From positions 40,724,766-40,788,765 of the forward strand of contig OX387184.1 of assembly GCA_947561395.2 (NCBI GenBank): a stretch of DNA of 64,000 nt, in the 5' to 3' direction. Of this stretch, positions 1 to 44,101 are shown piece by piece. The notes under the pieces were generated by a model. That model was not told the DNA's origin. It did no database searches and saw only the letters and a list, made by a program, of their open reading frames with translations. The translations under genes and the position numbers were made by a program. The DNA comes from Buxus sempervirens. Its lineage: Eukaryota; Streptophyta; Magnoliopsida; Buxales; Buxaceae. Position 1 is the first letter of the stretch; each line of letters opens with the position of its first letter.

Positions 1-2
1 AT

Positions 3-143
3 GCAGATCCTGAACTTGAGGAGCAGGCTTGTATCCCTGCCCCAGATTCTTTCATTCTGAATAATTGGGAGGAAACTCCCCTTACTTTTGAAGCCGCGTT
101 TGTTTGGCAAACAGACATGGCTTCCAAAAAAAAACTCCATTAG
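3..143 (+). pseudogene. E1 gag-pol, upstream segment in a shifted frame
   Basis: This reading frame is open from the window edge to a TAG at 141-143 and runs through a nine-A run at 126-134. The downstream pol frame takes over at the same place and has its own stop at 89-91, so the two pieces are best read as one gag-pol ORF broken by a frameshift in the A run. The segment would lie between protease and reverse transcriptase. No conserved motif is visible in so short a piece. It could be a true lesion, a sequencing error in the homopolymer, or a recoding site. Confidence 0.5.
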
Positions 144-3100
144 TGGAATGCCCTTTTCCTGAAGGTTTTAATGAGCCTTCGTCTTCAGGGAAAGATTTTG
201 TAGAAGGCTCTCAAAAAACACAAAAAGATTTTTCAGTTTTTTTTAGAAAAGATAAAGTTTTCAAAAAGGTCCAAACCATTTATGAACCATATAAGCAAAC
301 GGAATTGGATCAGGATGAGTATGACTTCGACCTTGAGCTCGACTTTGACCTAATGGGGGTTGAAGAAGAGACCGAGGACGAAGAAGACGACGTTCCAAAA
401 GAAATCACATATCAATTAGAGCGTCATGAAAAGGGGGTCCAACCCAATATTGAAGAGACCATATCTATCAACCTAGGGACCGAAGATGACCCAAAAATAG
501 TGAAGATTGGGGTATGTCTATCTGAGATACAGCGGGATGAAATGATACGATTTTTGGCTGATTATGAAGATGTGTTTGCATGGTCGTATCGGGATATGCC
601 GGGGTTAGACACAGATATGGTGGTGCACAGGCTACCCATTCTACCAGACTCTAAGCCAGTTAAGCAGAAACTGAGAAGGTTAAAACCTGAGTGGACATTG
701 AAGGTTAAAGATGAAGTGGTTAAGCAATTCCAAGCTGGATTCTTAGCAGTGTCCACATACCCCGAATGGCTTGCAAATATAGTGCCAGTACCAAAGAAGG
801 ATGGAAAGGTCAGAATGTGCGTAGATTATAGAGATTTGAATAAGGCAAGTCCAAAGGATGATTTTCCACTTCCACACATAGACATCTTGGTGGATAACAC
901 CGCTGTACATAGTCTATTTTCATTCATGGATGGGTTTTCTGGGTATAATCAGATTAAGATGGCTAAGGAAGACCAAGAGAAGACAGCCTTTATCACCCCT
1001 TGGGGTACCTTCCATTACACTGTCATGCCATTTGGACTTAAGAATGCTGGGGCAACCTACCAGAGGGCCATGACAGCCTTATTCCATGATATGATCCATA
1101 AGGAGATGGAGGTTTATGTGGATGATATGATAGCCAAATCATGTGAGGAAGAAGACCACTTGATCAACTTGAAGAAGGTATTTGACCGGCTTAGGAAATA
1201 CAGTCTAAGGCTTAACCCTGCTAAGTGTGTCTTTGAGGCTACATCAGGAAAATTATTGGGTTTTATAGTAAGCAGAAGGGGAATTGAGATTGACCCAGCT
1301 AAAGCTAAAGCCATCATTGAAATGCCATCACCTAGAACCGAGAGGGAAGTTCGGGGTTTTCTTGGGAGGATTCAGTACATAAGCCGGTTCATAGCACAGC
1401 TCACCGCTATCTGTGAACCAATTTTCAAACTTCTAAGAAAGAATAACCCGACAGTCTGGAATGATGAGTGCCAAGAAGCCTTTGACACAATAAAGGAATA
1501 TTTATTAAACCCACCTGTGCTAGTACCACCAACTCCAGGAAGGCCACTAATCCTATACTTGTCTGTTTTGGAGACATCAATGGGGTGTGTCTTAGGACAG
1601 CATGACGATACAGGCAGAAAGGAGAGGGCGATTTACTACCTGAGTAAGAAATTTACAGAATATGAAGCAAAGTATTCCCCTTTGGAAAAGACTTGTTGTG
1701 CTTTAGTATGGGCAACTCAGAGACTAAGGCACTATTTCCTTAGTCATTCCACCTTATTGATATCCCGCATGGACCCTTTGAAGTATCTATTTGAGAAACC
1801 AGCTTTAACTGGCAGAACAGCAAAGTGGCAGTTGTTGCTCTCTGAATTTGACCTCACCTATATCACACAAAAGGCCATTAAGGGTCAAGCCATTGCAGAT
1901 CACTTGGCTGCACACCCTTTACCAGAATACCAACCCTTAAAGACCAACTTCCCTGATGAGGCAATCCTGTTTGCTGAAGAGGAAGAAGGTGAAAGCTCAT
2001 GGCAAATGTTTTTTGATGGGGCCGCCAATATGAATGGAAATGGAATAGGGGCTGTATTGATCAAGCCAGATGGGGCACATATCCCAATCGCAGTGAAGTT
2101 AAGGTTCCAATGCACGAACAATATAGCAGAGTATGAAGCATGCATAATTGGGTTACAAGCAGCCTTAGACCATGAAGTAGAGGAACTTGACGTATATGGG
2201 GATTCGAGTCTTATCATCTTCCAAACAACTGGTGAATGGAAAACCAAGGATCACAAATTGATCCCCTATCACCAGTATTTGGAAGAAATAAGCACCAAGT
2301 TTATTCGAATTTCCTTCAATTATATGCCAAGGGCCAAAAACCAGTTTGCAGATGCTCTGGCAACATTGGCTTCAATGGTCAGTATGCCAGAAGGGGTTGA
2401 TATTAGACCATTAGAAATTGAAGTCAGAGATGAACCAGCTTACTGCCTTGTTCTAGAAGAAACCCCAGAAGAAGAAGTGCCATGGTTTCAAGACATTAAG
2501 AATTTCCTAAAGGATCGAACTTTACCAGAAAATGTCACCTCTACAGAGAAAAGAACAATACAGAGGCTGGCAGGACAGTTCTTACTAAGTGGTGGGCAGT
2601 TGTACAAAAGATCACACAATGATATACTACTTAGATGTGTTGCAAAAACTGAGTCAGAAAGGATAGTTGAAACCGTACATGGAGGAGTGTGTGGACCCCA
2701 TATGAATGGGCATATGCTTGCCAAGAAGATTCTGCGATTGGGATATTACTGGTCGACTATGGAGCATGACTGCTATATGCACGTTAAAAGGTGTCATTTA
2801 TGCCAAGTGTACGCAGATAACAAGAATGCACCCCCAAGTGAATTACACAGTATGACATCTCCGTGGCCTTTTTCTATGTGGGGTATAGATGTCATTGGAA
2901 TGATCTCTCCAAAGGCATCAAATGGACACAGGTTTATACTTGTAGCAATCGATTATTTTACCAAGTGGGTAGAAGCGGCTTCTTATGCAAACATTACGAG
3001 TAGCCATGTTCTTAAGTTTTTGAAGCACAACATCATTTGCCGCTATGGTTTGCCAAGTGCCATAGTAACAGACAATGCTTCAAACCTTAAGAACAAAGAC

Positions 3101-3730
3101 ATGAGGAAGATGTGTGAACAATTTCAGATTACCCACCACAAGTCAGCGCCTTACAGACCAAAGATGAATGGGGCAGTGGAGGCAGCAAATAAGAATATAA
3201 AGAAGATTATTCAGAAAATGGTAGTGAGTTTCAAAGATTGGCATGAAATGCTACCACTTGCTCTACATGCTTACAGAACCTCAATCCGGACTTCTACAGG
3301 GGCAACTCCATACTCTTTAGTTTATGGAATGGAAGCAGTTTTACCAGTGGAAGTGGAAATACCTTCACTAAGAGTGCTAATGGAAGCAGAATTAGAAGAA
3401 GCTGAATGGATACAGTCTAGACATGATCAACTCAATTTAATTGAAGAAAAGCGTTTGAAGGCACTTAGTCATGGCCAATTATATCGAAAGAGGATGGCTA
3501 GGGCTTACAATAAAAAGGTGAAGCCCAGAACTTTCCAAGAAGGAAATTTGGTATTAAAGAAGATTTTACCCTTTTTGGAAGATCCTCGCGGAAAGTTTAA
3601 ACCAAATTGGGAAGGACCTTATGTGGTCAAGAAGGTCCTATCAGGGGGTGCTCTCATCTTAACAGAAATGGATGGGAAGGATTTTCCTGAGCCAATTAAC
3701 TCTGATGCAGTAAAGAGATATTTTCCATGA
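104..3730 (+). CDS. pol: Ty3/gypsy (Tat lineage) Pol: RT, RNase H, second RNase H, integrase
   Basis: Long open frame of 1208 codons; the first codon here is TTG, so this is the continuation of an upstream ORF and not a true start. Domains in order: reverse transcriptase at about residues 175-400 with the catalytic YVDD at 338-341; the ordinary gypsy RNase H at about 470-605; a second, archaeal-type RNase H at about 632-775 starting with FFDGAAN (Asp638); integrase from about 870 with an HHCC zinc finger and a D929, D990, E1026 triad, a DD35E spacing. No chromodomain is seen; the protein ends in a Tat-like C terminus. The duplicated RNase H is the established hallmark of plant Tat/Ogre elements. 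The frame has no internal stop, so the element may be young. Two genes on the opposite strand follow it instead of a short 3' UTR. Confidence 0.95.
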   Translation: MANRHGFQKKTPLVECPFPEGFNEPSSSGKDFVEGSQKTQKDFSVFFRKDKVFKKVQTIYEPYKQTELDQDEYDFDLELDFDLMGVEEETEDEEDDVPKEITYQLERHEKGVQPNIEETISINLGTEDDPKIVKIGVCLSEIQRDEMIRFLADYEDVFAWSYRDMPGLDTDMVVHRLPILPDSKPVKQKLRRLKPEWTLKVKDEVVKQFQAGFLAVSTYPEWLANIVPVPKKDGKVRMCVDYRDLNKASPKDDFPLPHIDILVDNTAVHSLFSFMDGFSGYNQIKMAKEDQEKTAFITPWGTFHYTVMPFGLKNAGATYQRAMTALFHDMIHKEMEVYVDDMIAKSCEEEDHLINLKKVFDRLRKYSLRLNPAKCVFEATSGKLLGFIVSRRGIEIDPAKAKAIIEMPSPRTEREVRGFLGRIQYISRFIAQLTAICEPIFKLLRKNNPTVWNDECQEAFDTIKEYLLNPPVLVPPTPGRPLILYLSVLETSMGCVLGQHDDTGRKERAIYYLSKKFTEYEAKYSPLEKTCCALVWATQRLRHYFLSHSTLLISRMDPLKYLFEKPALTGRTAKWQLLLSEFDLTYITQKAIKGQAIADHLAAHPLPEYQPLKTNFPDEAILFAEEEEGESSWQMFFDGAANMNGNGIGAVLIKPDGAHIPIAVKLRFQCTNNIAEYEACIIGLQAALDHEVEELDVYGDSSLIIFQTTGEWKTKDHKLIPYHQYLEEISTKFIRISFNYMPRAKNQFADALATLASMVSMPEGVDIRPLEIEVRDEPAYCLVLEETPEEEVPWFQDIKNFLKDRTLPENVTSTEKRTIQRLAGQFLLSGGQLYKRSHNDILLRCVAKTESERIVETVHGGVCGPHMNGHMLAKKILRLGYYWSTMEHDCYMHVKRCHLCQVYADNKNAPPSELHSMTSPWPFSMWGIDVIGMISPKASNGHRFILVAIDYFTKWVEAASYANITSSHVLKFLKHNIICRYGLPSAIVTDNASNLKNKDMRKMCEQFQITHHKSAPYRPKMNGAVEAANKNIKKIIQKMVVSFKDWHEMLPLALHAYRTSIRTSTGATPYSLVYGMEAVLPVEVEIPSLRVLMEAELEEAEWIQSRHDQLNLIEEKRLKALSHGQLYRKRMARAYNKKVKPRTFQEGNLVLKKILPFLEDPRGKFKPNWEGPYVVKKVLSGGALILTEMDGKDFPEPINSDAVKRYFP

Positions 3731-3893
3731 ATGAATATTACTAGGAAAGGATCTGAGGCCATTGTTCTTTATATCCCAAAATTTGAATCCCTAGTCAAAC
3801 CAATTTGAGCCTGTTCGTATTTTTTGTTAAACCCAAACTGGACTTACAGCCTTATACTGGGGCAAGGCCAATAAGGGCAAGGCCAATAGGGGC

Positions 3894-3930
<37 letters not shown>

Positions 3931-4726
3931 GGGGCAAATAAATGCCAAATACAAAAGAAGGGGAATGGGATTGAATCCACCATGACTGTAAGTCCAGTGG
4001 ACCCATTTTCACACTTAGAAAATTTTGAGCCTTTAATACCTTTTCTTTCATAAACCGAACCTAGCCTTTGTTTCATCCTATTATTAAGCCCTCGGTGATT
4101 TTAGTATATTCATTCAACTTTCAGAGTAAGATTGGTGATGACGGAATGCAGAGGCCAACCCTAGTGAAAACCGTAATTGGCACTAGGGGCAAGAAGGGCA
4201 AAAAGAAAGAAAAAAAAAAGAAAAAAAAAAAAAAAAAAAGAAAAGAATCAAGGGGTGAGTTGATCATGGGGTCTAAGTTTCAAATCAGCATGAGCACTGG
4301 AAACTGAGCAGATCAGCAAGGTTCATCATGAAGGTAAAATCATTAGGGGATGATTCTAAAGGTTATGGGGTAGACAAATTTGGTCTCTTCCTATTGCTTG
4401 GACTACCCTTTTCATTATTCAACCTGATTTTAATTCCTTTAATTATATGTGATTAAGTGTTTTGGAGCAGCTTTCAAAAAAAAAAAAACAAAAAAAAAAA
4501 AAACAAAAAAACAAAAAAAAACAAAAAAAAACTATACTTTGGCCAATGATGAGAAATCAAATACTTTTTCATAAAACTTCTGTTTTTATAAGCATTTGAG
4601 AATTCTGAGGCCAATAATATAAAACCTATTTTTGAATTAAATCTAATATCTTTCCACTAATGGAGTTTGCTTTTGTAAAAAAGTATGGAAAAAATGAAAG
4701 GAAAAAAAAAATGATGATGAAAGAAT
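3731..4726. other. Spacer between convergent 3' ends in E1
   Basis: No coding potential is seen. The stretch holds A-rich runs (around 3895-3910, 4207-4240 and 4480-4530), a short TA dinucleotide run (about 3909-3931) and ordinary AT-rich sequence. It separates the stop of pol (+) from the stop of the antisense DUF7745-like gene (-), so it probably contains the polyadenylation region of both. Confidence 0.5.
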
Positions 4727-5620
4727 CTAATCCCTACTCCCTAACTGCTCCTCAAGCTCCCTAATCCTAGCTGCCTGAGTTGCAATGATTCCGGAAGCAC
4801 CCTCTGCATCAGGATCACTCAAAAAGGAGATGACCTCATCTGAAAAGGAAAGCTTGATCTTCAACGCCCTAAGGTCAGCCAAGGAATCCTGATACTTCTT
4901 CCGCATCACACGGACTTCAAAGCGGCGAGCCTGCCTTTGTTCTTCAAGTTTCTTCTCCATGGCAATGCGGCCAGACTTCTGCTCTTCAAGATGCCTCTCC
5001 AAAACAAGGACTTTTATCCTAAGTTCTTGAGCCTCCCGTGCCCATATTTGTTGAAGCCGCCTATGGGTTGCCCTTTCTGACTCCAGAATGTCCTCATAGG
5101 TGGGAGGAAGAACTGCAGGTGGATCCTCTGGTACTGGGGCATGACTCTGCACCTGTTCTTTGATCCAGAAATGATAGTCCTTCACATGGGACTCAGAAAA
5201 GACTGGACCCCGCAGAAAGCAAACATAGGACCACTCTTTCATTAATTGAGCATTTAGCCCCATGGTGGCTGATGTAAGTAGCCCTATAAAGCTCTCATAA
5301 CCTGTGGGAATCATAATTCCCTGGGTCGCTCCAAATTGCCGAAGAACCCTCAAAGGAAGATAGAGAACAGCAGATTTCAAGCCTGCTAGGGCCAGAAAAT
5401 TTTTATCCCTAAAGCTAATCACTGTCTCTGGAGTAGGCTGATAAGTGCCAGGCCATCTCACTTGATCATCCTGGAGAGTACCCAAGAAAGTGAACCAGCC
5501 TTGCTTGCCACCTTGGATGTTAGGACATCCCCTATTGCTCATCAAAACAGGAACTTTCAATCTTGGAAAGAAGCGGCGAGTTATTTCTTCTACCTGGCTA
5601 AGATGGTCAAGCAACCAAAG
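4727..5620 (-). CDS. Antisense DUF7745-like gene, exon 2 (C-terminal half)
   Basis: Second exon of a gene lying antisense to pol, downstream of it, inside element E1. The acceptor is CTGCAG with the exon starting at 5620. The product aligns by eye along its length with the intact ORF at 62017-63450: shared stretches include an LWL-DHL block, a WxGTY block, a VLRQFG block, a SFIGLL/SLIGPL block and an FSESH/FTESH block. The last ~110 residues are a strongly predicted coiled coil rich in E, R, Q and L heptads. The intact homologue has only a short coiled coil, so this copy is extended. I assign the family (plant DUF7745, carried by Ogre-type elements as an extra ORF) from remembered family features; the molecular function is unknown. 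The reading frame upstream of 5620 runs into intron sequence and should be ignored. Confidence 0.72.
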   Translation of the reverse strand, partial: LWLLDHLSQVEEITRRFFPRLKVPVLMSNRGCPNIQGGKQGWFTFLGTLQDDQVRWPGTYQPTPETVISFRDKNFLALAGLKSAVLYLPLRVLRQFGATQGIMIPTGYESFIGLLTSATMGLNAQLMKEWSYVCFLRGPVFSESHVKDYHFWIKEQVQSHAPVPEDPPAVLPPTYEDILESERATHRRLQQIWAREAQELRIKVLVLERHLEEQKSGRIAMEKKLEEQRQARRFEVRVMRKKYQDSLADLRALKIKLSFSDEVISFLSDPDAEGASGIIATQAARIRELEEQLGSRD

Positions 5621-5654
5621 CTGCAGAAAAAGGGAGTATTTTAATTTATTTCCA

Positions 5655-5830
5655 AAAAAAAAAAAAAAAAAGAAAAAGAAAAAAAAAGAAAGAAGAAAAA
5701 AAGGAAAAAGAAAAAAAAAAGAAGAAAAAAAGGAAGAAGAAAAAAAAAAAAAAAGAAGAAAAAAAAAAAAGGAGAAAAAAAAAAAAAAAAGAAAGGAAAG
5801 GAAGAATAGAAAAAAAAAAATATAATATAG
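5655..5830. repeat. Polypurine/polypyrimidine microsatellite inside the DUF7745 intron
   Basis: About 175 bases are almost entirely A and G on the plus strand, in irregular GAA, GAAA and GGAA steps. In the sense of the antisense gene this is a long pyrimidine tract upstream of the acceptor at 5621, so it fills most of the 237 bp intron. The lysine- or phenylalanine-rich open frames here are artefacts of composition. Confidence 0.85.
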
Positions 5831-5857
5831 AAGAAAAAAAATACATGCATATTTTAC

Positions 5858-6555
5858 CTGTAGGATAGGGCGCAGGCAAGGAAGCGTTTCTTCTTCCTGA
5901 AATAACAATCAGTAAGAGCCTGATATATCTCTGCTAGGATCATAGGGGCCAACCTCTCGCGTTCCCTAACCTGACAGATAACTGAGATGAGAGCCAAGTC
6001 AACCTGGTCATCACCCCGTGGAAAAAGCAGCTGATTGACCACTATCAGGGTCAATGCATTAAACCTAGAGTCCTTGTCATTACTCCTCAGAAGTTTTTCA
6101 GTCAAAAAGGTCTTGGACAAGGTCAATAGTGCATCAGAATTTCCTAAGTCCTTCTTCCCTATACCCAAGAAAGTGGAAGCCTCCTTTTTATAACTAAGCT
6201 TTAGGGGTGGGTTCACAACTTTTTCAGAAAATCTAAGGCCAAGGATGGTTTCAATCTCTTCTATGGTAGGAGTCATCTCTTTATCATCAAAACGGAAGAG
6301 ACTCAGCTCAGGTACCCAATGGCCTATCAAAGCTTCAATGATTTCCCACTTAAAGGGAATTTTAGGGAGGTGTAGGATGTGCCCTAAGTGAATGGAATCC
6401 CAACGAATCTCCTCATCAAGGGTCATGGAGTTAACCCATCTATCATAAAAGGAATCCACAATATTGTACCTGGTAAGATTAGGAGGTTTTGATCTAACAG
6501 GTTGTCTTGCAGGAAGAGATTCAACGGCAGGAGAAAGCGGCGTAGGGGAAGCCAT
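5858..6555 (-). CDS. Antisense DUF7745-like gene, exon 1 (N-terminal half)
   Basis: I place the start at the ATG at 6555, because the residues after it (MASPTPL) match the MASSSS start of the intact homologue at 62017 and a TATA box lies 90 bp upstream. The open frame does extend 19 codons further up. It contains the conserved FRF(D/G)-x-LTPTIEE-like motif and the SYKKEAS/SYKNEAC motif shared with the sense copy. The exon ends at a canonical donor (ACAG/GTAAAA). Joining 5858 to 5620 removes a 237 bp GT-AG intron, but the joined exon is one base short of keeping frame relative to the homologue. The copy therefore carries a one-base lesion, or a base is missing from the assembly next to the junction. 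The gene lies between pol and the PMD gene and shares the PMD gene's orientation. Confidence 0.7.
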
Positions 6556-6645
6556 GGAAGCACCAAAGAAGCCAAGGAAAGCGAGAAAAGACGTGCTCAG
6601 GGAGTTTTTCAATTAATAAAAGTGTCACAATGATGTTCCCTAGGA

Positions 6646-6655
6646 GTTTATATAG
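6646..6655 (-). promoter_or_regulatory. TATA box of the antisense DUF7745-like gene
   Basis: CTATATAAAC on the minus strand, about 90 bp upstream of the chosen ATG at 6555 and just downstream of the inverted-arm cluster at 6683-6800. Spacing and order (cluster, TATA, ATG) are those of a pol II promoter. Confidence 0.6.
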
Positions 6656-6682
6656 AAAAAATTGTAAGACAGTAAATTCCGT

Positions 6683-6800
6683 AATTATATTACGGGCAAG
6701 GCTCGCCCGTATAGGAATTACGGACACGCCTGACCGTGAAAATTGCACGGGCAGCGCACGCCCGTAATAACTTTACGGGCACAGCCTGCTCGTAGTATAA
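6683..6800 (-). promoter_or_regulatory. E1 inverted-arm cluster 1 (ACGGGC...GCCCGT)
   Basis: Four consecutive ~19 bp sites, each ACGGGC or a close variant, about seven variable bases, then GCCCGT or a close variant, repeated every ~27 bp. The cores differ while the arms are kept. It lies directly upstream of the TATA box of the antisense DUF7745-like gene. The same sites occur at 11297-11405 and 11843-11960. They look like repeated operators for a dimeric DNA-binding protein; the protein is not known. Confidence 0.7.
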
Positions 6801-7011
6801 GTACGGTTCCTTCGAAAAAATGCAAAAAAATGGGAATTTTTAATTTCTTTGGTTTCCCTAAGCTTCACCTGTCCCTGTTTTAACATTCATCAGATAATAA
6901 ATACTGTAAATAAAGAAGAAAGAACACAAATGGAAATAAAACAAACTTCTTTTATATATATGAATGTTTACATCACTTTTGCAAAAAAATACAAAGGTAC
7001 ATGGAAGAATC

Positions 7012-9957
7012 CTAATCTAATGGCCATGCAGGTCCGCTCCTACGGCCACGGCCTCGTCCTCTGCCTCGACCACGGCCTGTAGATCGCCTACGCTCAAAGA
7101 CATGCCGCACAATATTGCGGGCCGTGCTACGCGTCATCCTGCTCAAAACAGACTGAATATCATGCCACATATATAAAGGCACAAGGCCAGCAGTGGGATG
7201 ATCAGGAGGGACGTACCCTGAAGTATCTACATATCCCGTAGAATCGGGATCAGACTCTGTACGGGAAGAATCCGCAGAAGGATCAACAGCAGCATGTGTC
7301 ACCTCCGCATCCTCCATATCAGGACTAACAGGACCAGCAGGAGCAGATGTCCCAGGTACATCAACCTCCGGCTCCACAGGCTCGGTAGCAGTCATCTCCA
7401 CCTCGGGCTCTACAGGATCAGCTGTAGCCTCCTCCATCACGGCAGTCTCCACGGTAGGCTCTACCACAGCGGCGTCCACAGCCGAATCCATATCAACATC
7501 AACAGATGTAGCAGGAGCCGTCTCAGCCACTGGGGCAGACTCTGGCACGTCCTCAGTAGCAGGTACAATATCAGCCTCGACCTCGGGTTCTGCTGCAGGA
7601 ACCTCCTCTGGACTAGGAGACGTCACGAACTCCACCCGTGCCACAGAAAACACCTCATCCCGGAAATGCATAGGCACGGGTGAAGCAGGTGAAGAGGGAC
7701 CAGCTGTGTACTCCTGAAACTAAGAGAAAAATTCAGTCAGAACAAGACAAACAAATACAAAAGCAGGAATGGAAATAAAAGAAGAAATTAACCTGAGTAT
7801 CGGATGGACCCGCCTGGTCCTGTGCATCAGATGGACCCGCCTGATCATGTACATCAGATGGACCCTCCTGGCCATGGGCTCTGGCTAGCTGCCCCCGGAG
7901 ATCTGAGATGGTAATATAGAGGGCATCCCGCTCGGCGATCGCGGCGTCACGCTGGCGCTCTAGATCAGCATAGCGAGACCGGATCTCTGCCAACTGAGCC
8001 TCCTGAAATAAAGAAGAAAGAAGTCAGAAAATGCTAAGGACAGATGAAATAGAAATAGAAGATCACAAAAGAAGAAAGCATACCGTAGTGTCATAGGCCC
8101 TAATCACTACCCCTCCTATCTCCGTGACTCCGCCACGGACAGGCATGGGTGACATGAGGCACCCAACAGAAGATCGCCTGAACCAGGCATCATAGTCACC
8201 CTCCTCCAATAATGTCTCTGCCTCAGTCCAATCCAAGAACTGGGCAGGATCAACAGGCATAGGAGGATAGAAAGGAGTAGTATCTGGCGGGATGGCAGGA
8301 ATCCGCGGCTCTCCCACATGCTGAAAGAAGAAGCGCTCGCCGCAATACCAGATGCTGCCCAGCTGACCAATAAAAAACTGGTATCTCTGTCGTCTCTGGT
8401 CAGGGACAAATGCATCATCTCTCGCAGCCTGCAGGGCCAGCACCTCATGAATGTCCTCCATCCTGGGGACAAATAGCTGAAAAACAGAACAAGACATCAG
8501 ATATGTGATCCAGGAAGAAGAGAAAAGAAGAAATAGAGGAATTAAAGAAGATTACCTCAGACCGGTACAACCTATCCAAGTGGGCCCGGGCGGACCTGGG
8601 ACGACTCTTTTCAGAGTCGTGCTCTACATGACACCATCTAAGTGCCATGGGATACGTCTCCTCAGGCATCGTAGAGGTAGGGCGGAAATAGGGTATATAA
8701 ACCCTAGCAAAAAACTGCAAGAAAGAAGAAAATAGTCAGAAGAATAGAAAAGGAGAGATAAAAAGAAAGAGATAAAGAAAAAGAAAAGAAAAAGGTTCAC
8801 CTGCAAGAAGGGCCAGAAGAACCTGCACCCAACTCCAGCCCCTCTGGAGGTAGAGAGGCCACTCACTGATCGGCGCAGGCCAGCCAGAATAGTACCAAAT
8901 ATGAGTGGGCCCCAGGCATACCTCCTCGCCCGCTACAGATCTCCCAGAAGACTCAAGAAGTGAGGACTAACTGAGGTCGTGTCCTCTGGGAAGAAGCATG
9001 ATCCCATCATATACAGAAAAAGGAATCGGAAGGCGAAGGGAAATACATGATCACCGACAGCAAGCTGGCCAAACTGCCTCCTCCGGAAAGTCTCTCTCAA
9101 CCATGTCAGAGACAATCTAGCTCTCCCCCGATCCCATGCCTCAAGAGGCAGCACAATATATCCAAGATAAGCTGCAATCTCATCAGCCTCTGGCATAGTC
9201 ATCTCAGTAATAACATCACCGATCATCCTAATCCCGGTGATGAGTGTGAAATCAGAAGGCCGGATCCCAATCTCTATATCTGGGAGGTGGAAACTCAGTG
9301 TCTCTGGGAAAAACCTCTCCAACAATGCGGCAATGAGGGCCCGATCTAAGCGTACGTCCGGGATAGTGATAAACATGCCGAAACCATACAATCCTAGCTC
9401 CCGACGATAGGCCGAACTGCAAGCTCTCAAGAATCTAGTAAAGCTGGCCCAGCTCCCTCTATAATGGGACATCGGATACTCCAAAGGGATATCCGCCCTA
9501 ACGCACGCTGAGGGATGAGTCCTCAAACCATGCAGAAGATCGGTGTCCCTAATCTGGGCAGCCACCTCCTCAGGGATCTCAACCCTGGTCCTGGCCTCAT
9601 CTCTGCCACGGCCCCCTCTGCGGCCTCCTCTATGGCCCTCATCATGGCCTCCATCTCTGCCTCCAGCTCTGCGTCTGCTACGGCTCCTATCTCTGCCAGA
9701 AGCCTCAACAGCCGGCTAAAAGAAAATAATTGAAGAATCAGGAAGATGCATTTTGGGAAAGGATAGGAAATTGCAGAAAGGTTAGAGTATACCTCTGGGG
9801 TCGCCTCACGCGAATCCCCAGAAGGGAAATCTGGGATATCAGAATCAGAATCCCTCTCAGTCCTCGAAGACGAGGCCACATCAGCAGGATCTCGCCTAAC
9901 CCTCGAGGAGGAAGGCTCATCTGCAGGATCTCGGGAAGCCGATCTAAGGCGGGCCAT
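7012..9957 (-). pseudogene. Antisense plant-mobile-domain (PMD) gene, six exons, one in-frame stop
   Basis: A six-exon gene can be built with canonical GT-AG introns, all in phase 0: 9957-9793, 9715-8801, 8714-8556, 8476-8084, 8002-7793, 7713-7012. All exon lengths are multiples of three, totalling 847 codons plus stop. Exon 1 is Ser/Arg/Asp-rich; exon 2 starts with an Arg-Gly-rich stretch and then carries the PMD core; exon 5 has a short coiled coil and three near-identical GPSD-x-x-DQA repeats; exon 6 is Ala/Glu/Pro/Val-rich and ends in an RGRGRGRG tail. The one visible lesion is a TAG at 8935-8933 inside the PMD core. PMD proteins (MAIN/MAIL family) are nuclear factors for silencing and genome stability in plants, and PMDs are known inside gypsy and Mutator elements. 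The gene is antisense to pol and lies inside E1. A role in regulating the element is inference. Confidence 0.75.
8801..9715 (-). CDS. PMD core exon (exon 2 of the antisense PMD gene)
   Basis: Acceptor TTTTAG before 9715, donor CAG/GTGAAC after 8801. After an Arg-Gly-rich lead the exon reads a typical plant-mobile-domain block: GFGMFITIPDVRLDRALIAA, then a TLSFHLPDIEIGIRPSDF segment, a later FPFAFRFLFLYMMG segment, and a YAWGP segment with LRR and GCRFF after it. Family knowledge: PMDs show the same order, with an F-H-L-P-x-E-I-x-I box followed by a G-x-x-x-G and a YxWG box. The codon between LLGDL and RARRYAWG is TAG (8935-8933). The homology continues on both sides in the same frame, so this is a point nonsense change and not the real end of the exon. 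Confidence 0.75.
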
Positions 9958-11295
9958 CTACGGTTCAAATCAGGGAGATGATTAATTATTTATTTAAATT
10001 TTTAGTTGCTTGATTAATTATTCTAACCGGGTTTAATTGATTGACTGAAAAAAAAAGAAAAAATGGAGAATAGAAAGGACTTCAGAAACTCCCAACCAAA
10101 TCATGAATCCCTTGAAGAAGTTTATTTTAAGAAATTTTATTGTCTTATTTGGACTATTTTTGCTTTAACCAGGAAATTATAGGAAGTGCAAACTTTTACT
10201 TTAGGTTTCTTGATGTATTCCTAAAACATTAAAACTTTAGTGCATTGATGTTTAACCATGAATTTTGTGTTATTGCAGGTGTCCAATACAAGAGAAGTAA
10301 GCATACCAAGTGTTTACTCCAGAACCAGAAAAATTGCGGAAAGATAGTCATGTGTCCAACATAAATGTGATTCCACATATCACTTTCAAGAAAAGTATTT
10401 AAAAGAGATATCAGTATCCCAATTTCAGGCAGAAGGTTTGTCTCAATCGATAAGTGGGGAATCATGATCTTGTTGTTCATACAGAAGATATTATCAAATG
10501 GAATTAGCATGATAAAGGCCAAAGAGCAAAGAATCAAAAGTTAATCATAGAAGCTACATGGGGTTTTGGCAGAAGTAAGCCATAGAGCTGTCACAAAGCA
10601 GCTAGTTATAAGTCCTATGCTTGGTACAAAGCTTGCCAATGGTCAGATACAGAAATTCAGAGTTAACATGGGACAGCTTCCTACTTCAAGATAATGACCA
10701 AGTCTCGGCCACACAAGTAGACAGAATTAATTTTGGTTGAACATGAGAACCAACACAAACAGAAAATCATGCGAGAAGTAACTCAAGCCAAGCAAAGGAT
10801 CAAGGTAGAAACACAAATCAGAAAAAATTCTGGTCGAATAGACAAGAAGCATATGGTAAACATGGAAATTAGAAACAATAGAGAAAATTCGTATGGATGC
10901 TATCAATATATTGCTTGCAAAAAGGGAGTGATGATTCGGACACTTACCTGTCTCGGTCGAAATTGAAGAAACCTGACAAGAAAATGGAGAGGCCTTACTG
11001 CAGAGAATGTCCACAGTCGATTGATCACGGCCACGACAATACTCAAGTTCAGAGACAGTCGATGGTTGCTGAAGGAACAGTGGTAGTCCGAAATAAGAAG
11101 TCACCGGAGATAGCAAAATGCTGCCGGAGAAGAATAATAGTCGCCGGAAAATCAGAAGCTCGTCGGCGAGCTTGGGTACTATTGTTGAAGGAGAAGATGA
11201 GAAATGACCGTAAGAGAAGATACGGGCAGTAGAGAATTAGGGCAAATGCGAGCAGAGGAGAAATGGTCGCGTTCGCAAGCTTAAGAAGGAGTTCA
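9958..11295 (-). other. Probable 5' UTR exon and leader intron of the antisense PMD gene
   Basis: On the minus strand 11290-10948 looks like a plant 5' UTR: pyrimidine-rich, with CTCCGGC and CCGGCGA steps, ending in a perfect donor (CAG/GTAAGTG) at 10948/10947. A plausible acceptor (CCGTAG) stands directly before the ATG at 9957, giving a leader intron of about 990 bp. The operator-like cluster at 11297-11405 sits immediately upstream. The short open frames here on both strands show no recognisable domain and I do not call them genes. No clear TATA box is seen. Confidence 0.45.
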
Positions 11296-11296
11296 A

Positions 11297-11405
11297 AATC
11301 CGTAAGATCAGTACGGGCATCATACGCCCGTGAAAGTACTACGGTACCAGTCGCCCGTGAACCCTCTACGGGCAGGGTCAGTCCGTAAGCACAATACGGG
11401 CAAAG
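11297..11405 (-). promoter_or_regulatory. E1 inverted-arm cluster 2, upstream of the antisense PMD unit
   Basis: Contains ACGGGC-core-GCCCGT sites (11315-11405) with the same arms and ~27 bp step as the cluster at 6683-6800, for example ACGGGC/GCCCGT, ACGGTA/GCCCGT, ACGGGC/GTCCGT. It lies just upstream of the inferred 5' UTR exon of the PMD gene, which suggests it is that gene's promoter element. Confidence 0.65.
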
Positions 11406-11735
11406 CCAAATATTGCGTATTTTATCATTTTCTCACAATTTTTAAGAGATTAATGTTTGTATTAGTTGTAAGTTGCAAGGATTGCCACCTTACCCACTTT
11501 TGTTTAAAAATTTTGTCTCAAATCTCACATCATAGCCCACAAGTGCTCAGTGAGAAGAGAGAGGAAGATTTGGCCCTTAAGCTGAGGGATTTCTTAGCAA
11601 ATCTTCCACAATCAATTCTTTTTTTCAAAAATCATCCATTTAGTCCTTGCAAAGTGCAATTGATTATACAAAAATCTCAGAAGGTGCAATTGGTGGGTCT
11701 TTTTGCTCTCTGCTTGTAATTGGTTCCAATTACCA

Positions 11736-11751
11736 GCAAAGAGGGGGCAGC
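11736..11751 (+). promoter_or_regulatory. Polypurine tract of E1
   Basis: AGCAAAGAGGGGGCAG, then C, directly before the TG of the 3' LTR at 11752. It is the plus-strand primer site for reverse transcription and fixes the orientation of E1 as plus. Confidence 0.8.
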
Positions 11752-11842
11752 TGTAGACACCGCAAATTGCACTGCCAAATGAGAAAATAATAAAAACATG
11801 TAATTAGAGCTTAAAACAGGTCAAAAAGGCCTAAAAATAGAA

Positions 11843-11960
11843 TGAACAGGCTTTGCCCGTATTGACTTCACGGGCCGATCTTGCCCGCAAAATATCTACG
11901 GCCAGCCGCGCCCGTAGTATCTATACGGTCCCCGTTGGACCGTAGTGTATTTACGGGCAT
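11843..11960 (+). promoter_or_regulatory. E1 inverted-arm cluster 3, in the LTR promoter
   Basis: Sites of the ACGGGC-core-GCCCGT type again, at about 27-30 bp steps: ACGGGC/TGCCCG, ACGGCC/GCCCGT, ACGGTC/GACCGT, ending with ACGGGC. It lies 200 bp upstream of the LTR TATA box at 12160. This ties the sense LTR promoter to the two antisense gene promoters of the same element. Confidence 0.7.
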
Positions 11961-12159
11961 TAAAGACACGTGCGAGTTTTGTCATCCTCTCGATTTCCGA
12001 GCTTTATTTGAAGTCCAATATATCTTTAAACGAGCGGATTATGTCTTTTATTCGCTGAAGTCACCTTGGATGGCTATGGATGGGCATCATCTCTGTATTT
12101 CACTCTATCCTGAGGATCAGGCTATATCCTTCTGGACCAGCCTTGCCCCTGGGTGTGAC

Positions 12160-12167
12160 TATAAATA
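12160..12167 (+). promoter_or_regulatory. TATA box of the E1 LTR
   Basis: TATAAATA followed by GAGGCTC, in the same context (GTGACTATAAATAGAGG) as the E3 LTR box (TGCCTATAAATAGGAGG) at 29299. It would start sense transcripts of E1. Confidence 0.7.
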
Positions 12168-13409
12168 GAGGCTCATTCCTCTAGCTTAGGGCCACGAAAT
12201 TTTGAGTCCAAGGAATTCTAAGAAGCTCCAAGAGAAGAACTCCTGCTGCCTGCTTGCTCAATCCAGGTAAGTCCCTTATCCCTTTTTTATTTTCTGTCTT
12301 CAATTCTAGAAGTAATAGGATCATCTCTATTGCTGTAGAATAAGGCTATATCTGTTTGTGTATTCCTAAACTTGTCTCTAAGTACCTCAAGGGTCTCTTT
12401 AGCCGTAAAACGTGAAGAGAGAACTAGGGGAAAAGAGAACAGGTGGATCCGTAGGGTAGACCCCATGTGCTCTAATTTGTGAGATGTGGCTGTTTTAAAT
12501 ATCCTGATCATGTTTTAATGCTTTTTATGATATATTTGAATGAATAACATGAATCTATGATGTTTATAGCATGAGATCCCCACTTTTTGCCAAAATTTGG
12601 ATTTTCCACACTTTTGCACCTACAGCACTGTTTTCGTGATTTTTGTGGTTTTAGGCTAGGATCTTGGATTTATCATGATCAATATGGTAGATCTGAATCC
12701 AAAAGCCTAAAAGTAAATTCTAGGGTTTCATGATATGGTTTTTGAATCGTTTCTCCTTTTTGAGAGAAGACCCTACGGTCTAAATTCTCCCCTTTTGGTG
12801 TTTTTCATCAATGTGGGTATTTTTGGTTTTGATTTTCAGATTTAACGTGAAATTTGGGCTTTATCTATGTCCTGGACTGTTCAAGTTCAATTTTGAAATA
12901 TTTTATAAAAATCATATTTTTCTAGATTTCTAGAATTTTGACTTGAAGCCAGATTTTTGGATTTTTCACTTTAAATTGATTTTATTTGATTTTATCTCAA
13001 TTTTATTTTGATCATGAAACCCTAGGAATGGTATGATCATGTTTGAAAGTTCTGGATCAATCAGACTATTCATATGAAAAAACCATACAATTTTTGTCTT
13101 TTTTGTGATTTTCGTGATTTTTATAGCAAGCTTTTTCCTTTATTTTGACATGAACAAATACCTGGTAACCACTTTATGTGGATGAATAGGGGTGCCTAAC
13201 ACCTTCCCCTGTTCATAACTTAATCCCCTTACCCATCTCTGGTTGTTTTTCTTAGGAGGGATATTTTGCCCTAAAATTTGCCTTTTGTGCTTATTTAATA
13301 TTTTGGTGTCCATTCACACCTAGATTGAATGGTGGCGACTCTTTGTTTAATATAATCCCGTGTGATGATTGAGGAAATCATGTAGATTGATTTTTTCCCA
13401 TGTCTCACA

Positions 13410-14167
13410 ACAGCATTTAGATGAGATTCTTTAGGATTAGCCTGATATCTTGCACAAACTCCAACACTAAAACTTATATCAGGTCTACTTGCTGTTAAGT
13501 ATAGAAGACTTCCAATCATCCCTCTGTACAAGGTAGGATCTATATCCTTCCCAGATTCATCTTTTCCAAGCTTTAAGCTAGTACTCATAGGAATCCTAGC
13601 ATGTTTTGCATGAATTAAACTGAATCTCTTGACTAGATTTCTTGCATATTTTGCTTGAGAGAAAAAAATCCCTTGTTGAGATTGATAAATCTGAAGTCCT
13701 AAGAAAAAATTCAGTTCACCCATCATACTCATCTCAAATTCACTATTCATTAAGTCTCCAAAGGAATGAGCATGAGTTTCAGAAGTAGATCCAAACACTA
13801 TATCATCAACATATATTTGAACAATCAAAATATGCTTGGACTCTCTTTGAATAAAGAGAGTTTTATCCACATTTCCTCTCATAAATCCAGATTCAAGTAA
13901 GAAAGAGGTGAGTCTCTCATACCAAGCTCTAGGAGCTTGTTTGAGTCCATACAAGGCCTTGTTCAACTTATAAACATGTTTAGGATAATTTGAGTCCTCA
14001 AATCCTTTAGGTTGCTCTACATAAACCTCTTCATTCAGATATCCATTCAAGAATGCACTTTTAACATCCATTTGAAACAGTTTAAACTTCAAATAGCATG
14101 CAATAGACAAAAGTAATCTAATTGACTCTAACCTAGCTACAGGAGCAAAGGTTTCATCAAAATCTAT
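13410..14167 (-). pseudogene. Copia reverse transcriptase, main part, truncated by E1
   Basis: Same frame as the integrase part upstream, separated from it by a TGA at 14170-14168. It shows the FAPVARLESIR motif, QMDVKSAFLNG, KALYGLKQAPRAWY, the catalytic YVDDIVFGS, and the RPDISFSVG stretch of copia RT. Translation matches up to HLNA and then runs into the E1 LTR at 13409, where about 38 unrelated codons follow. Confidence 0.88.
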
Positions 14168-22207: not shown

Positions 22208-23857
22208 GGTGTTCCCCTGTGTTTATGTATCTCTTGTACCCCCATGTAAGCCCCATTCTCCACCCTTCTCCTTGCTTTGCCTTTCCATTGAATGAGTTGT
22301 TATTTTGAACATGATTAGTGGTAAGGTGCATGCTTACGTGTGTTGGCATGTGTAGAGATTAGGAAGTTTGTTTTGAGTGCATGCTATTGTCTAGCTTCGT
22401 GTAGCTTAATCACTTGCCGTTTTGTGATGAATGAAGAACCAAGGTAGGGGCACTTAAGCCCCCACCTTATTGCTGTAAAAACCCCAAGAGGAATGGGGGA
22501 TAAACCCGGATCCTTTTCCTTTGTCTTGCATGAACCCAAAGTCCCCAAAAGTGATCAAATGAGGTGATTCCTCATCACCTGAACCACTGTGGGCTCCCAC
22601 AGGAGCCCACACAACCTCTGGAACACCCTGGGAGGTTTAAAAGCCCAACCCCAGTGCAAAAAATCTGAAAACAGGCTTCTGTGTGTTGATCCGGCAACTC
22701 AGGCCGGATCAACATAAGCCTATGTATAGCCGGCAATAGATGCCGGATACACAGAGACCTGTGTGTAACCGGCATCTCAGGCCGGCTACACTGTCAGAAT
22801 TCATTTTGAGCCATTTTCTGATCTCGTGCTGTGTTTTGGCTCGTTTGATCAAATCCGGGCGAACCAGTAGGGTTTCCGGGTCACCCGGAAACCCAAGATG
22901 GGCCATGGACCGACCCGGTCCAAATTGATTTCCGGTGGGCCTTCCAACGGGGCCCACCAAGCCCGACCAATTTATTTTTGCTTAACTAAGATAAATAAAA
23001 GATTTGAGTGGGCCAGACCACTTGAGGCCCACCCAAGCCCTAGTTGGGCCATGCATGCTTAAAGTAGGATGTGGTTTGGCCGAGACCACGGGCTGGGCCT
23101 ATCGGGCCCACTAAGCCCATGAACCCAACCAACTTAGGGTTTCAAAACCCTAACTCAGGAAGTCTTGGGCTTTCAAGCCCAAGCCCAGGTAAAGGGCCCC
23201 AAGCCCGAGGCCTGGCCCGCTTTGGTATAATTAAATCAAGATAATCAAAGTCACTTGGCAAACAACTGTGGGGCCCACTCAAGGGCCCACAAAGCAATCC
23301 CGGCCCACTTTTAGCATGAAATCCATTTAAATAATCCAACTTAAACCCTAAAGTAAAATCAATTCATTTGAACCAAAGCCCAAAGGGCCTCTCAGGCTAG
23401 ACTGAGGCCCACAAGGGACACGTGGGCTCAACCAAGCCCACCAAGGAATCCGCGGGCCTTCCAACGGGGCCCGCCCAATTAGACCCACATCACTTTAATT
23501 AAGAAGATAAAATCAAGTAAAGGGACTCACACCACTTTGGCGGTCCCACCAGACTTAATCAAATTACATGCTGGAATAGGAATCGGGTGAGTGAGAGACC
23601 AACTGAGTTGACTCGAACCAGGGAATCCTATGGGACCCATCACTTGACGGGGTGGACTGGGGTGTCTACGGACTTCCCCAGACCGCAACCGAGAACCTAC
23701 TTAGAATCTCAAGCCGCAAACCAAGCCTTAGTAGAAGAACTTAGGCACCCAGGTGTCTGCTTGCACCCCATCAGGCAGTGGCGACTCCAAACAATCCCGA
23801 GGCACGCATCATTTTTGCGTGCGCCTCGTCGTGCGACCGAAATCGGGTGCGCACAGT
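22208..23857 (+). mobile_element. Ogre-like LTR fragment hosting the copia element
   Basis: From 22208 the sequence follows the E4 LTR from its middle (compare 43345 onward: TTGTACCCC, GTAAACCCC-like and GTGCATGCTT words) and then its GGGCCC-rich tail (compare 59550-60480) to the GCGCACA end at 23857. The 5' part is missing because the copia LTR starts exactly at the left edge. A cluster of GCCGG-arm sites lies at 22685-22790. After 23857 comes GTGGTGTCTCGGGGGAG, which could be a PBS for a different tRNA or simply flanking DNA. Open frames in it are not coding. Confidence 0.7.
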
Positions 23858-27683: not shown

Positions 27684-27896
27684 ATGGCTTGCAACAAAGT
27701 CTTGGCAGTTGTTCTGATCTCCTTCTTTCTTGTCATGGCGTGTGCCGAAGTTGGCGAGGCGACCTCGCCATGTATTGCTGCATGCAAGGTTAAATGTCTC
27801 AGAGTGAAGGGCTCAACCGATATCGGATGCCAGAATGCTTGCAAAGCCGGTTGTGATCAGATTTCTGCAGGAGGTCGAAACAGTAACAGTAACTAA
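27684..27896 (+). CDS. Small secreted cysteine-rich peptide (thionin-like / helical-hairpin type)
   Basis: 70 codons, ATG in a good plant context (ACAATGGC), with a TATA box at the right distance. Residues 1-27 form a signal peptide with a hydrophobic core (VLAVVLISFFLVMACA), likely cut near GEA/TSP. The mature part has six cysteines in the order C-x3-C-x3-C-x9-C-x3-C-x3-C, a symmetric pattern that suggests two helices joined by disulfides. Thionin-like and alpha-hairpinin-like defence peptides of plants have related patterns; I cannot assign the family firmly. A Ser/Asn/Gly-rich tail follows. No intron is needed. It is the only convincing non-transposon gene here; a role in defence or signalling outside the cell is inference. 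Confidence 0.75.
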   Translation: MACNKVLAVVLISFFLVMACAEVGEATSPCIAACKVKCLRVKGSTDIGCQNACKAGCDQISAGGRNSNSN

Positions 27897-28844: not shown

Positions 28845-29007
28845 TATACAAGATGTGCTCCATTTTATAGTGACCAAATGAGGTACGTGCATTACTGCAA
28901 ATAGAAGGTAATTCACGTTTGAACTCTTTAGGCGGTGTAGACACCCCAAATTGCACCGTGAAAATGATGAATAATTGGCCAAAACATTAAAAAAAATAGT
29001 TTTTTCT

Positions 29008-29145
29008 TGTGGCCGACATAAAAAATCGGAAAATAAATTTGTTCTTTGTGATACAAATAACTTTAATTGTATCCGATGGATTTCGTTAGATACAAAGATA
29101 ATTACTTGTATTCGACCTGAGTTGTCGGATACAAGGATTTTGCTC
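29008..29145 (+). promoter_or_regulatory. E3 LTR inverted-arm cluster (TTGTATCCGA...TCGGATACAA)
   Basis: Sites with arms TTGTATCCGA and TCGGATACAA or variants around a ~10 base core, for example at 29112-29142, repeated about every 30-40 bp. Same design and same place (150 bp above the TATA box) as the E1 cluster, but with different arms. Confidence 0.6.
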
Positions 29146-29298
29146 AAAATTAGGGTTTTCTGAAAGTTTTCACTTTTTACTGTCTTATCCTTTGTTTAAG
29201 AAGTGGAAATCTCGAAAATAACCTTAGGGTTAAATGGGAGAATGCTAGACACTTCCTTGTGTCTACCATTAGGGTTCCCCCTAACCCTAACCTTTGCC

Positions 29299-29306
29299 TA
29301 TAAATA
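29299..29306 (+). promoter_or_regulatory. TATA box of the E3 LTR
   Basis: TATAAATA in the context GCCTATAAATAGGAGGCC; a splice donor-like CCAG/GTAAGCC follows at 29400. Confidence 0.7.
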
Positions 29307-31344
29307 GGAGGCCTCTCCTCAAGCAAATGGCCAAGAGTTGGAGATTGAAGAGCTCCAAGTGAAGAAGGGAAACCTCTGCCCCATTGCTTCCAGAACCCAG
29401 GTAAGCCTTAACTATCTTTTAATTTTCTGTTTTTAAATTCTAGGGTAGTTCTCTTCTTCTACCTTTCTGTAGAATAATGGCCTATTGTTTATGCTTGAAA
29501 CCCCTTTTCCTACTCAAAGTACCTGGAGACTCTCTCTAGCCGTAAAACGTGAAGAGAGATCTAGGGGAAATGAGAATGGGAATTGACCCTTAGTCATAGA
29601 ACCCTCTTGAATGGCCTATGATTGTGTGAAACCCCATTCCCTACTCAAAGTACCCCAAGATTATTTCTAGCCGAAAAATGCGAAGAGAGAACTAATGGAA
29701 ACAAGAACGGGAATGGAACCCTAGTTATAGAACCCCCATTTGATTGATATGCTTTGAATGCTATATATCATGATGTGTTGAGGTTATTTTTTTACACATG
29801 CACCCATTGCACTTGTTTTTTTCGAATCGGCTTGTATTTTGGATCTATTGTATTCATTGTGATAGATCTGAAATAAATGGCCCCAAGCATTTCTGGGATA
29901 TTTCTTAATGATTTTCAAGCAAGTTTATCTTTGAGTATTGAAGACCTCATGGTCTAACCTCTTGGTTTTGGGCATCTTTGCTCTAGTTTAGGGTTTTTGG
30001 CATATTCTCTCCAATTGAAGAGAATGGTGAGCCAATTTCTTGCCCTATTTCCTCCTGGAGGTTTTTCAATACTTTTTCAAATGATTTTGGTCTGGATTGC
30101 ACGGATTACACACACTTGATCACTGTTTTGGGTTGATTTTACTTTAAAATGTCAAAACTGGACAGCATCTGTACCCTAACTTCGGACACTCATAACTTTA
30201 TCATCCGAATGAATTTTGGAGTGATTGCAAATACATGTGAAAGGTGAGACTGTCTAGTTCTTGTCTGTAAAATTTCATCAATTTTTATGACGTGGATTTT
30301 TGACCCCATTCGATCAAAGTCGACAGGTCAGTTCAAGCCAGATTGCTAAACCTGTCACTTTGAATGAGCACCATCTGCTCGATTTAAGTCTGATTTGAGT
30401 GATTTTGGTTTCTGTGTCTTTCTTTGTGAGTCTAATTTCAAATCCAGTTGGTTTCACAATTTTTTTATTTCATTTGTGTCTTGTGTGACTGATTTACTCA
30501 GAACTGCCCTATAGCACAATTCTGTGCTGATCTGTGATCCTCTAGGCATGTTCGTGAGGTCACAAAAGTCACCTCCGAATGGAGTTGGGTGTGAGGCCTA
30601 TTTCATTTGAAATATGGCACTACATACTTCATTCATGCAAATTTTCACTGATTTATATGGAACCAATCTCCACAAATGGATTTCCAAAGTTTCCCACTTG
30701 TCACTTTTATCGATTTACAACAGCAGATTTCAAATGAGCATAACTCTTAATATTTTAATCAGATCTACTTGAAAATTTTCCAAAGTCTTCTATTTATCAT
30801 AATCTTTCGAATGAATTTGATTTGATTCAATTTAAATTTGATTTGGATGATTTCAAGACAAATGGCTCCATCTTTTACCGAATTTATCGGATTTGTCTTA
30901 ACTTGGTTGTGTTCAAGTTTTATTTTGATTTCCATTTAATAGTGATATCCCGAAAGTGATAATTCCATAAAAGAAAGTATAAGATTCATTGGACTTCTCA
31001 TGTGAAGGGATCATACATGTTTTTAAACCTTTTTAAGCCTTTTTGAGTATTTTAATTAGCAAGCTTTCTTTATTTTGAGCATGAACAACACTTGGCAACC
31101 ACCTTGTGTGGGTGAATGGGGGTGCCTAACACCTTCTCCCGTTCATAATTTAATCCCCTTACCCATCTCTGGATTTTTTATTTTAAAGTGGAATTCTTTT
31201 TAATCTAGATTTGCCTTATGTGCTTGTTTCGATGATTTTGGTGTCCATTCACACCTAAAAAGAATGGTGGCGACTCTCCCATTTTTATGAATCCCGTGTG
31301 GTGACCGAAAAGTCACTGGATTGATTTTTCCCATGTCTCACAAC

Positions 31345-33064: not shown

Positions 33065-33235
33065 CTAATTCGGCATTAACCAACAACTCAGGGCGGTTAA
33101 ACAGTATAATCTCCTTATCCGACATATGTCATCAGCAAAAAGGTTATATGTATGTATCCGATCATTTGTATCGGATACAATAAAGCATAGCTTTATCCGA
33201 TTTGACATGTTGGATACAGCCCGAAAATTGGCAAA
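33065..33235. promoter_or_regulatory. Second E3 inverted-arm cluster, in the leader
   Basis: Sites with TATCCGA and TCGGATACAA arms, for example TGTATCCGA/TCGGATACA near 33155-33182 and TTATCCGA/TTGGATACA near 33190-33220. They match the LTR cluster at 29008-29145. In E1 the extra clusters mark promoters of extra genes; here no gene is recognised next to it. Confidence 0.5.
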
Positions 33236-33544
33236 TGGATTTTTCATCCCCATTTTTTGAGAATAAAATGCCTAAAACATTGGGAATAATCTGTGGGCAC
33301 CCCAAGGAGAGTATGAAAAGATAATTCAAGTGTTCAAAAAATTTAACTAAGGATTTAACCTAATTTTGAAACACAAATCTACCCTTTCCCACAAGCCTAA
33401 GAAAGATCCATTAAGGGGAGGGAGGGGGGGTGCGCGGGGGGACCAAAGTGTCATATTTCTTGATACCAATTCACCTCAAACATGTTTCAATCAAAAATTT
33501 GAAGTTGAAAACTAAGGAAATTCAGTAAATCTAAAAAAATAAAA

Positions 33545-34415: not shown

Positions 34416-34604
34416 AACAAAAAAAATAGAAGAATATATAAAAAAAAACAAATAAATCTGGACTTGTGTTCACCTAACTCACTATCTACATTTATAGGTG
34501 TGTGACTCAGATTAAATTTGAACTGACATGTTTCTTTGTTTTTCCTTCTCCAGGTACACATACTTGCAACCATTGCTCCTGTAACCATATCAAAAACCCG
34601 TACC

Positions 34605-41718: not shown

Positions 41719-41839
41719 TGTAAGCACCTCATTTTTGCGCTCCCCGAAAAACCAAAAATACAAACCCTGGACAGAAAGTCAAACCCTAAGGGGTGAAAAG
41801 TTGACTTTTTGATCAAGTGAAAATTGGCCACCTTGCTTT

Positions 41840-42690: not shown

Positions 42691-42696
42691 TTGGCC

Positions 42697-44045: not shown

Positions 44046-44101
44046 CTAAAAAATGCCAAATTGATATATTTTTGAAAAATTCCAAAAATGCCCTTTACTC
44101 T

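Follow-up and report, generated by a model that had tools for sequence, protein, structure and literature searches.

We analysed a 64,000-nucleotide stretch of the Buxus sempervirens genome (C4:40724766-40788765, contig OX387184.1; hereafter the window), whose content is made up of plant retroelements, and searched the whole genome (676.5 Mb in 247 contigs) for relatives of one feature within it. Positions 1-13411 are the 3′ portion of a Tat-type Ty3/gypsy element, here called E1, in which plus-strand pol is followed by two antisense genes, first DUF7745 and then PMD, and by the polypurine tract and the 3′ long terminal repeat (LTR). Three ladders of a rigid, outward-facing site, CCG-N11-CGG, stand above the DUF7745 gene, above the PMD gene and above the LTR promoter, and related lineages carry the same geometry with different outer bases at the corresponding promoters. 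The pattern suggests that each lineage has a private regulon with a dimeric reader, which may be a PMD-superfamily protein of the element itself, resembling the control of VANDAL transposons by their VANC proteins; we regard this as evenly poised between right and wrong.

A sequence-only reading of the window had described the clusters as inverted ACGGGC/GCCCGT sites with a core of about 7 bases and had proposed a VANC-like circuit with the DUF7745 or the PMD protein as candidate binder. The three clusters are present where it placed them, at steps of 27-28 bp, and it also placed the TATA boxes of the DUF7745 gene and the LTR correctly (Table 1). Each cluster holds four units of one arm class (class A), a dimer-like site set common to the three promoters. 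The first ladder stands above the DUF7745 TATA box; the second lies 5′ of the antisense PMD gene, with no TATA box found within 330 bp; the third occupies U3 of the 3′ LTR, with the LTR's TATA box some 200 bp below it, and its half-sites reach 11842-11971. These clusters are real and far from chance. E1 contains 15 occurrences of CCG-N11-CGG, 12 of them in the clusters and single ones at 1338, 7928 and 8122, and 0-3 occurrences of each other CCG/CGG spacing from 3 to 30. In 500 Markov shuffles of E1 the mean was 0.43 and the maximum 3, and the 27/28-bp step, found nine times in E1, was absent from all 500. Exact ACGGGC-N(5-9)-GCCCGT occurs three times in the window versus zero times in 100 shuffles.

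Table 1. Features of the window (positions count from its first letter)
Feature	Position	Strand	Basis or remark
pol: reverse transcriptase (RT), RNase H, second (archaeal-type) RNase H, integrase	152..3700	+	profile matches
DUF7745 gene, exon 2 (open)	4730..5623	-	Pfam DUF7745 0.0011, below cut-off; splice borders by eye
DUF7745 gene, exon 1 (open)	5860..6558	-	Pfam DUF7745 2.4e-19, PMD 9.1e-10
DUF7745 gene TATA box	6647..6654	-	sequence
Cluster C1	6679..6806		four class A units (6679, 6707, 6734, 6762; steps 28, 27, 28); half-site 6803
PMD gene, main PMD piece	8936..9715	-	Pfam PMD 5.1e-11
Cluster C2	11300..11399		four class A units (11300, 11328, 11355, 11383; steps 28, 27, 28)
Polypurine tract	~11737-11751		directly before 3′ LTR, by eye
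E1 3′ LTR	11752..13411	+	sequence
Cluster C3	11857..11956		four class A units (11857, 11885, 11912, 11940; steps 28, 27, 28)
LTR TATA box	12160..12167	+	sequence
Ladder of three CCG-N11-CGG units, different LTR element	22691..22785		39-bp steps; G-C variant of class B
E2 class B cluster, U3 of 5′ LTR (28937-31344)	29009..29132		partly decayed; TATA 29299-29306
E2 class B leader cluster before gag	33115..33217		39-bp steps; one unit is exact, two others have a single triplet mismatch

The sites proposed by the sequence-only reading exist, but the rigid unit is everted, CCG-N11-CGG, which with full arms reads GCCCGT-N9-ACGGGC. Inside the clusters of E1, 9 bases separate CCGT from ACGG in the everted order and 6 or 7 separate the arms in the inverted one; at 11208/11222 a stray pair shows an everted gap of 10. 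In 20 other loci, 109 CCGT-to-ACGG pairs fall at gaps of 0-30, with gap 9 in 67, 8 in one and 10 in one, while in the inverted order (ACGG to CCGT) a gap of 11 is found 41 times and of 10 five times; CCG-N11-CGG occurs 140 times in these loci versus 5-25 for other spacings. We therefore rejected the inverted arrangement as the rigid unit, since its gap varies while the everted gap stays fixed. The half-sites alternate, so two dimer frames are possible. Genome-wide, GCCCGT-N(0-25)-ACGGGC has 15,156 matches, a count that by itself says little since the reversed control is also high (3,953); among 50 distinct matches listed, the gap is 9 in 47 and 5, 7 and 7 in the others. A geometry set of 49 fetched loci (omitting L001-L005 and the 20 promoter copies L033-L052) extends this to further arms. 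GCCCGT and ACGGGC lie 9 apart in 27/27 pairs, and AACCG and CGGTT 11 apart in 16 of the 22 pairs within 30 bp; for TATCCG and CGGATA the gap is 11 in 67/67 pairs, 11 class B loci having been chosen by a pattern that fixes it. Of the 11 core positions, position 4 is preferentially T and position 8 preferentially A in all three arm classes (A, B and C), and ACTCAG/CTGAGT recurs among the cores of several families.

Class B is the arm class of a second element of the window, E2 (GTATCCGA-N9-TCGGATAC), which has the same triplet geometry at 39-bp steps in U3 and in the leader, partly decayed. Both classes are abundant: exact ACGGGC-N7-GCCCGT has 10,281 genome sites versus 3 for the reversed control, and the class B pattern 6,516 versus 0. 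We fetched 15 class A and 5 class B loci (9.9 kb each) from about 50 listed places per pattern, all at the start of contig C1, as were six further class B loci. All 20 sampled loci sit in LTR elements. This supports the sequence-only reading, which had asked whether the pattern is confined to E1 relatives. Class A is split between E1-type elements (8/15) and a separate LTR family, E3 (7/15). Class B loci fall in E2-type LTRs (4/5) and an E3-like LTR (1/5). E1-type LTRs carry their ladder in U3, and in L012, L015 and L019 the chosen site was instead in the leader, where a second ladder lies about 1.2 kb past the LTR, before gag.

The clusters mostly stand upstream of TATA boxes. Of 47 clusters (from the 20 sampled loci, from L026-L032 and from the window), 32 are followed on one strand by a TATA box at most 330 bp away, versus 1340 of 5600 random stretches (24%), and the distance from ladder to TATA box recurs by family (170-172, 202-212 and 16-17 bp). 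Leader ladders mostly have no clear TATA box, for which an anti-silencing role may be a better fit than a plain promoter element.

Conservation within the ladders falls on the triplets. We fetched 20 of 150 listed E1-family DUF7745 promoters; the ladder is present in 20/20, with all four units exact in 18, and the TATA box, aligned in 20 copies, is intact in all except L042, which has one change beside the box. Across 21 such promoters, minority bases make up 2/504 triplet positions, 123/2184 in the rest of the ladder and 99/3994 outside it. Fisher values computed on such cells assume an independence that element copies do not have. Among seven older U3 relatives (of nine aligned rows, L014 and L016 being omitted as partial), pairwise identity is 0.956 in triplets, 0.70 in the rest of the hexamers, 0.669 in cores, 0.538 in linkers and 0.788 outside the ladder, and the true register ranked first among 390 slid masks. 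The earlier claim that arms are kept while cores vary therefore holds for the CCG/CGG triplets, whose conservation far exceeds that of the cores, more than for whole hexamers. In our samples, which leave host gene promoters unsurveyed, the sites were not spread evenly and the arms were kept better than the cores, the two points on which the sequence-only reading had staked itself, and its interpretation is partly supported.

These figures bear on two rival explanations. One possibility is that the ladders are targets of host silencing: the triplets hold CG and CHG sites, many units are near-perfect palindromes that can form RNA hairpins, and in VANDAL21 silencing and anti-silencing hit the same non-coding regions (PMC10398659). 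However, triplet CpGs are lost less than those elsewhere in E1-family promoters (2/168 versus 21/210), the opposite of what heavy methylation without selection would give, a hairpin needs no invariant gap, and placement above TATA boxes suits promoters, all of which makes this account very improbable. Another is that tandem-repeat growth and template switching built the ladders, and that the block from the DUF7745 promoter to the LTR was inherited or swapped whole, with no shared regulator. C1, the PMD gene, C2 and the LTR are indeed adjacent, recombinant and nested copies are common here, and VANC targets likewise expanded as tandem repeats (PMC5735166). Neutral repeats would nevertheless not keep triplets and everted gap fixed while cores and linkers drift, and ladders in the leaders of L012, L015, L019, E2 and L028, across gag-pol, match the class of the adjoining LTR. 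We consider a history of repeats and linkage alone improbable.

Comparison of lineages adds a feature that the sequence-only reading did not include. In an element at C1:9627000-9635800 (L029, L032), class B stands at the LTR, above the antisense PMD gene and above the antisense DUF7745 gene, in the last case directly above the TATA box. Ten of 150 listed B-type PMD elements were sampled: class B half-sites occur at the PMD position in 9/10, and at the DUF7745 position eight elements have two or more, one has one and one has none. All seven stretches with a DUF7745 first exon have class B upstream, and class A half-sites are absent from 20 stretches of the ten elements. A third class, C (AACCG-N11-CGGTT), is found in the own U3 of the element in L014/L073 and above its DUF7745 gene, and two decayed class C units were seen by eye at its PMD position. 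A single arm class thus serves the LTR, PMD and DUF7745 promoters in each of the three lineages read, whereas the E3 family is mixed. Different arms with one geometry at homologous promoters of related lineages are a VANC-like feature. Classes A and B are not wholly uniform, class B having A or G after CCG and E3 LTRs having mixed outer bases in a second cluster. The ladder at 22691-22785, in a different LTR element, has GCCGG-type inner bases.

This concordance also has to be set against the hypothesis that the ladders are enhancers for host transcription factors, where each lineage would have come to use another member of a single host family with the CCG-N11-CGG geometry in common. It is usual to treat repeated palindromic boxes of LTRs as host-factor sites (Sirevirus, Tnt1 box I), other plants have CGG-CCG signatures in copia elements unrelated to these (PMC2829016), and two LTR families, E1-type and E3, share class A. 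A private factor is nevertheless the simpler explanation for one class at all three promoters of a lineage when close lineages have different classes, and in the 20 sampled loci, a survey outside which host gene promoters lie, the sites are in LTR elements only. We judge the host-factor account unlikely, though far from negligible.

Under the private regulon, the everted ladders, which stand before the LTR promoter and before both antisense genes (PMD and DUF7745) and, in related elements, within the leader as well, would be bound by a dimer whose halves read CCG/CGG plus lineage-specific outer bases. Less surely, the binder may be the PMD-superfamily product of the element itself, and binding may keep the promoters active or unsilenced. 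The element's RNA and its regulators would then be switched on together, as VANC does for VANDAL, and a change of arm specificity would reach every promoter of the lineage, by which sister lineages would become mutually blind. In this full form, with the element's own antisense PMD-superfamily protein on the ladders at the LTR and antisense promoters, the proposal is tentative and falls a little short of an even chance. A repressive, autoregulatory version is a further possible alternative.

Comparison of the proteins across arm classes bears on the candidate binder. Identities of three PMD pieces (a/b/c, shared sites) are 64/81/69% between lineages A and C, 48/63/46% between A and B and 47/65/45% between B and C; for the two DUF7745 exons (a/b) they are 73/67% (A-C), 82/78% (A-B) and 70/66% (B-C). 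DUF7745 is thus alike where arms differ (A-B) and is 33-37% identical to that of E1 in the E3 element L006, whose U3 is class A; similarity of DUF7745 by itself therefore does not determine the arms. Since arms also differ between A and C, linkage is an alternative and the stretches read of the E3 element have no PMD match, these identities leave PMD a candidate arm-setter. A stronger statement from L014, that arms follow PMD and not DUF7745, was withdrawn because the class A LTR found in L014 belongs to something else; the element's own LTR is the class C one in L073. The two antisense proteins are apparently related, since the DUF7745 exon has a match to the PMD profile as well (Table 1). 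Queried against a protein database, the PMD piece scored no match at E <= 0.001. In the genome, the PMD profile scored 117 places of 8447 candidates, several of them paired about 3.4 kb apart on one strand (for example C8:6756466 and C8:6759891); such pairs probably represent a further element that carries two PMD genes.

Several observations weigh against the regulon or its proposed reader. The adjoining positions of C1, PMD, C2 and the LTR mean that block inheritance can explain much of the concordance. Loci L060 and L065 are without half-sites, and L020 has the E1 polypurine-side stretch yet lacks the C2 ladder. E3 LTRs contain a second, intra-LTR cluster with mixed outer bases, and E3 shares class A arms with E1 though the one E3 element read has DUF7745 only, with no PMD match in the stretches read and the low DUF7745 identity given above. 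Lineages A and C differ in arms although their PMD pieces are 64-81% identical. In the window's copy of E1 the main PMD piece is followed, in frame, by a stop codon (8933-8935), and a profile scan found no known DNA-binding domain in the antisense proteins. The L006 locus, with L074 (C1:39016-48469), has two same-orientation E3 LTRs around about 4.8 kb. A DUF7745-like gene in sense is all that was found between them, and the whole looks like an LTR-DUF7745-LTR element.

Elsewhere in the window, 41719-59549 consists of ~3.8-kb head-to-tail units of 97-99% identity, apparently alternating LTR and internal parts of one element. The E2 leader holds an array of ~80-bp tandem repeats (33541-34426), and a short plus-strand frame at about 27684-27896 would encode a small cysteine-rich peptide with a signal-like start, as judged by eye.

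The nearest parallels are the Sirevirus boxes in cis, VANC in logic and the antisense genes of Grande and Retand in anatomy; published accounts are cited here from excerpts. The CGG-CCG type of repeat is already known from Sireviruses, a close precedent (Bousios et al. 2010, PMC2829016): these too are many short symmetrical CGG-CCG copies, element-specific otherwise, with a binder not identified there, clustered in the LTR above the TATA box and again above an additional gene located after pol and before the 3′ LTR. Sireviruses, however, are Ty1/copia elements with inverted CGG...CCG palindromes of 10-20 bp and a sense, env-like extra gene, and the excerpts describe neither a fixed everted 11-bp spacing nor a matched class change across promoters. 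The pol order of E1 (RT-RNase H-RNase H-integrase) is not that of Ty1/copia Sireviruses. VANC/VANDAL offers short tandem motifs in the non-coding parts of the element's own copies, arrays that co-evolve, and different motifs in related families, as with classes A, B and C here (PMC5735166, PMC10398659). On the other side, VANDAL is a DNA transposon of the Mutator-like (MULE) type, which E1 with its LTRs, RT, RNase H and integrase is not; VANC carries DUF1985 and DUF287, VANC21 motifs have a single orientation, and binding and demethylation are shown for VANC (PMC5735166, PMC10398659) and would be predictions for the ladders. Scans of five antisense pieces, part of the open reading frames of the region, found no match at E up to 1 to DUF1985, DUF287 or TRP28 (PF04195). 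Maize Spm likewise encodes a protein, TnpA, by which the element itself is activated and its DNA methylation lost, but TnpA belongs to a CACTA DNA transposon and is an unrelated protein (cited in PMC10398659).

Many plant Ty3/gypsy elements have antisense genes in the region from pol to the 3′ LTR, and their function is described as unknown both in a review of 2020 and in a survey of 2025 (PMC7264820, PMC11963269). E1 resembles Retand (Tat-type Ty3/gypsy) in having antisense coding regions there; gene23 of Grande gives a nuclear protein from its own promoter, with a function again called unknown. Unlike E1, with PMD and DUF7745, Grande and Retand encode TRP28 or unnamed proteins, and the excerpts of their descriptions make no mention of operator ladders (PMC7264820, PMC11963269). 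The Arabidopsis PMD proteins MAIN and MAIL1 have been linked to a promoter motif whose reader is unidentified (PMC7156037). A full-text literature search, with subscription papers mostly outside its scope, returned no paper on DUF7745 and no report either of the ladder system or of a retrotransposon with a VANC-like one. With a defined site, an invariant geometry and three natural, lineage-shared arm classes, the function of the antisense genes becomes directly testable by binding. If the regulon exists, the antisense genes of Tat-type elements would gain a function and a VANC-like system would be placed in a retrotransposon; were the binder the element's own protein, the private, fast-changing control known from VANC would extend to retrotransposons, with thousands of sites in a single genome.

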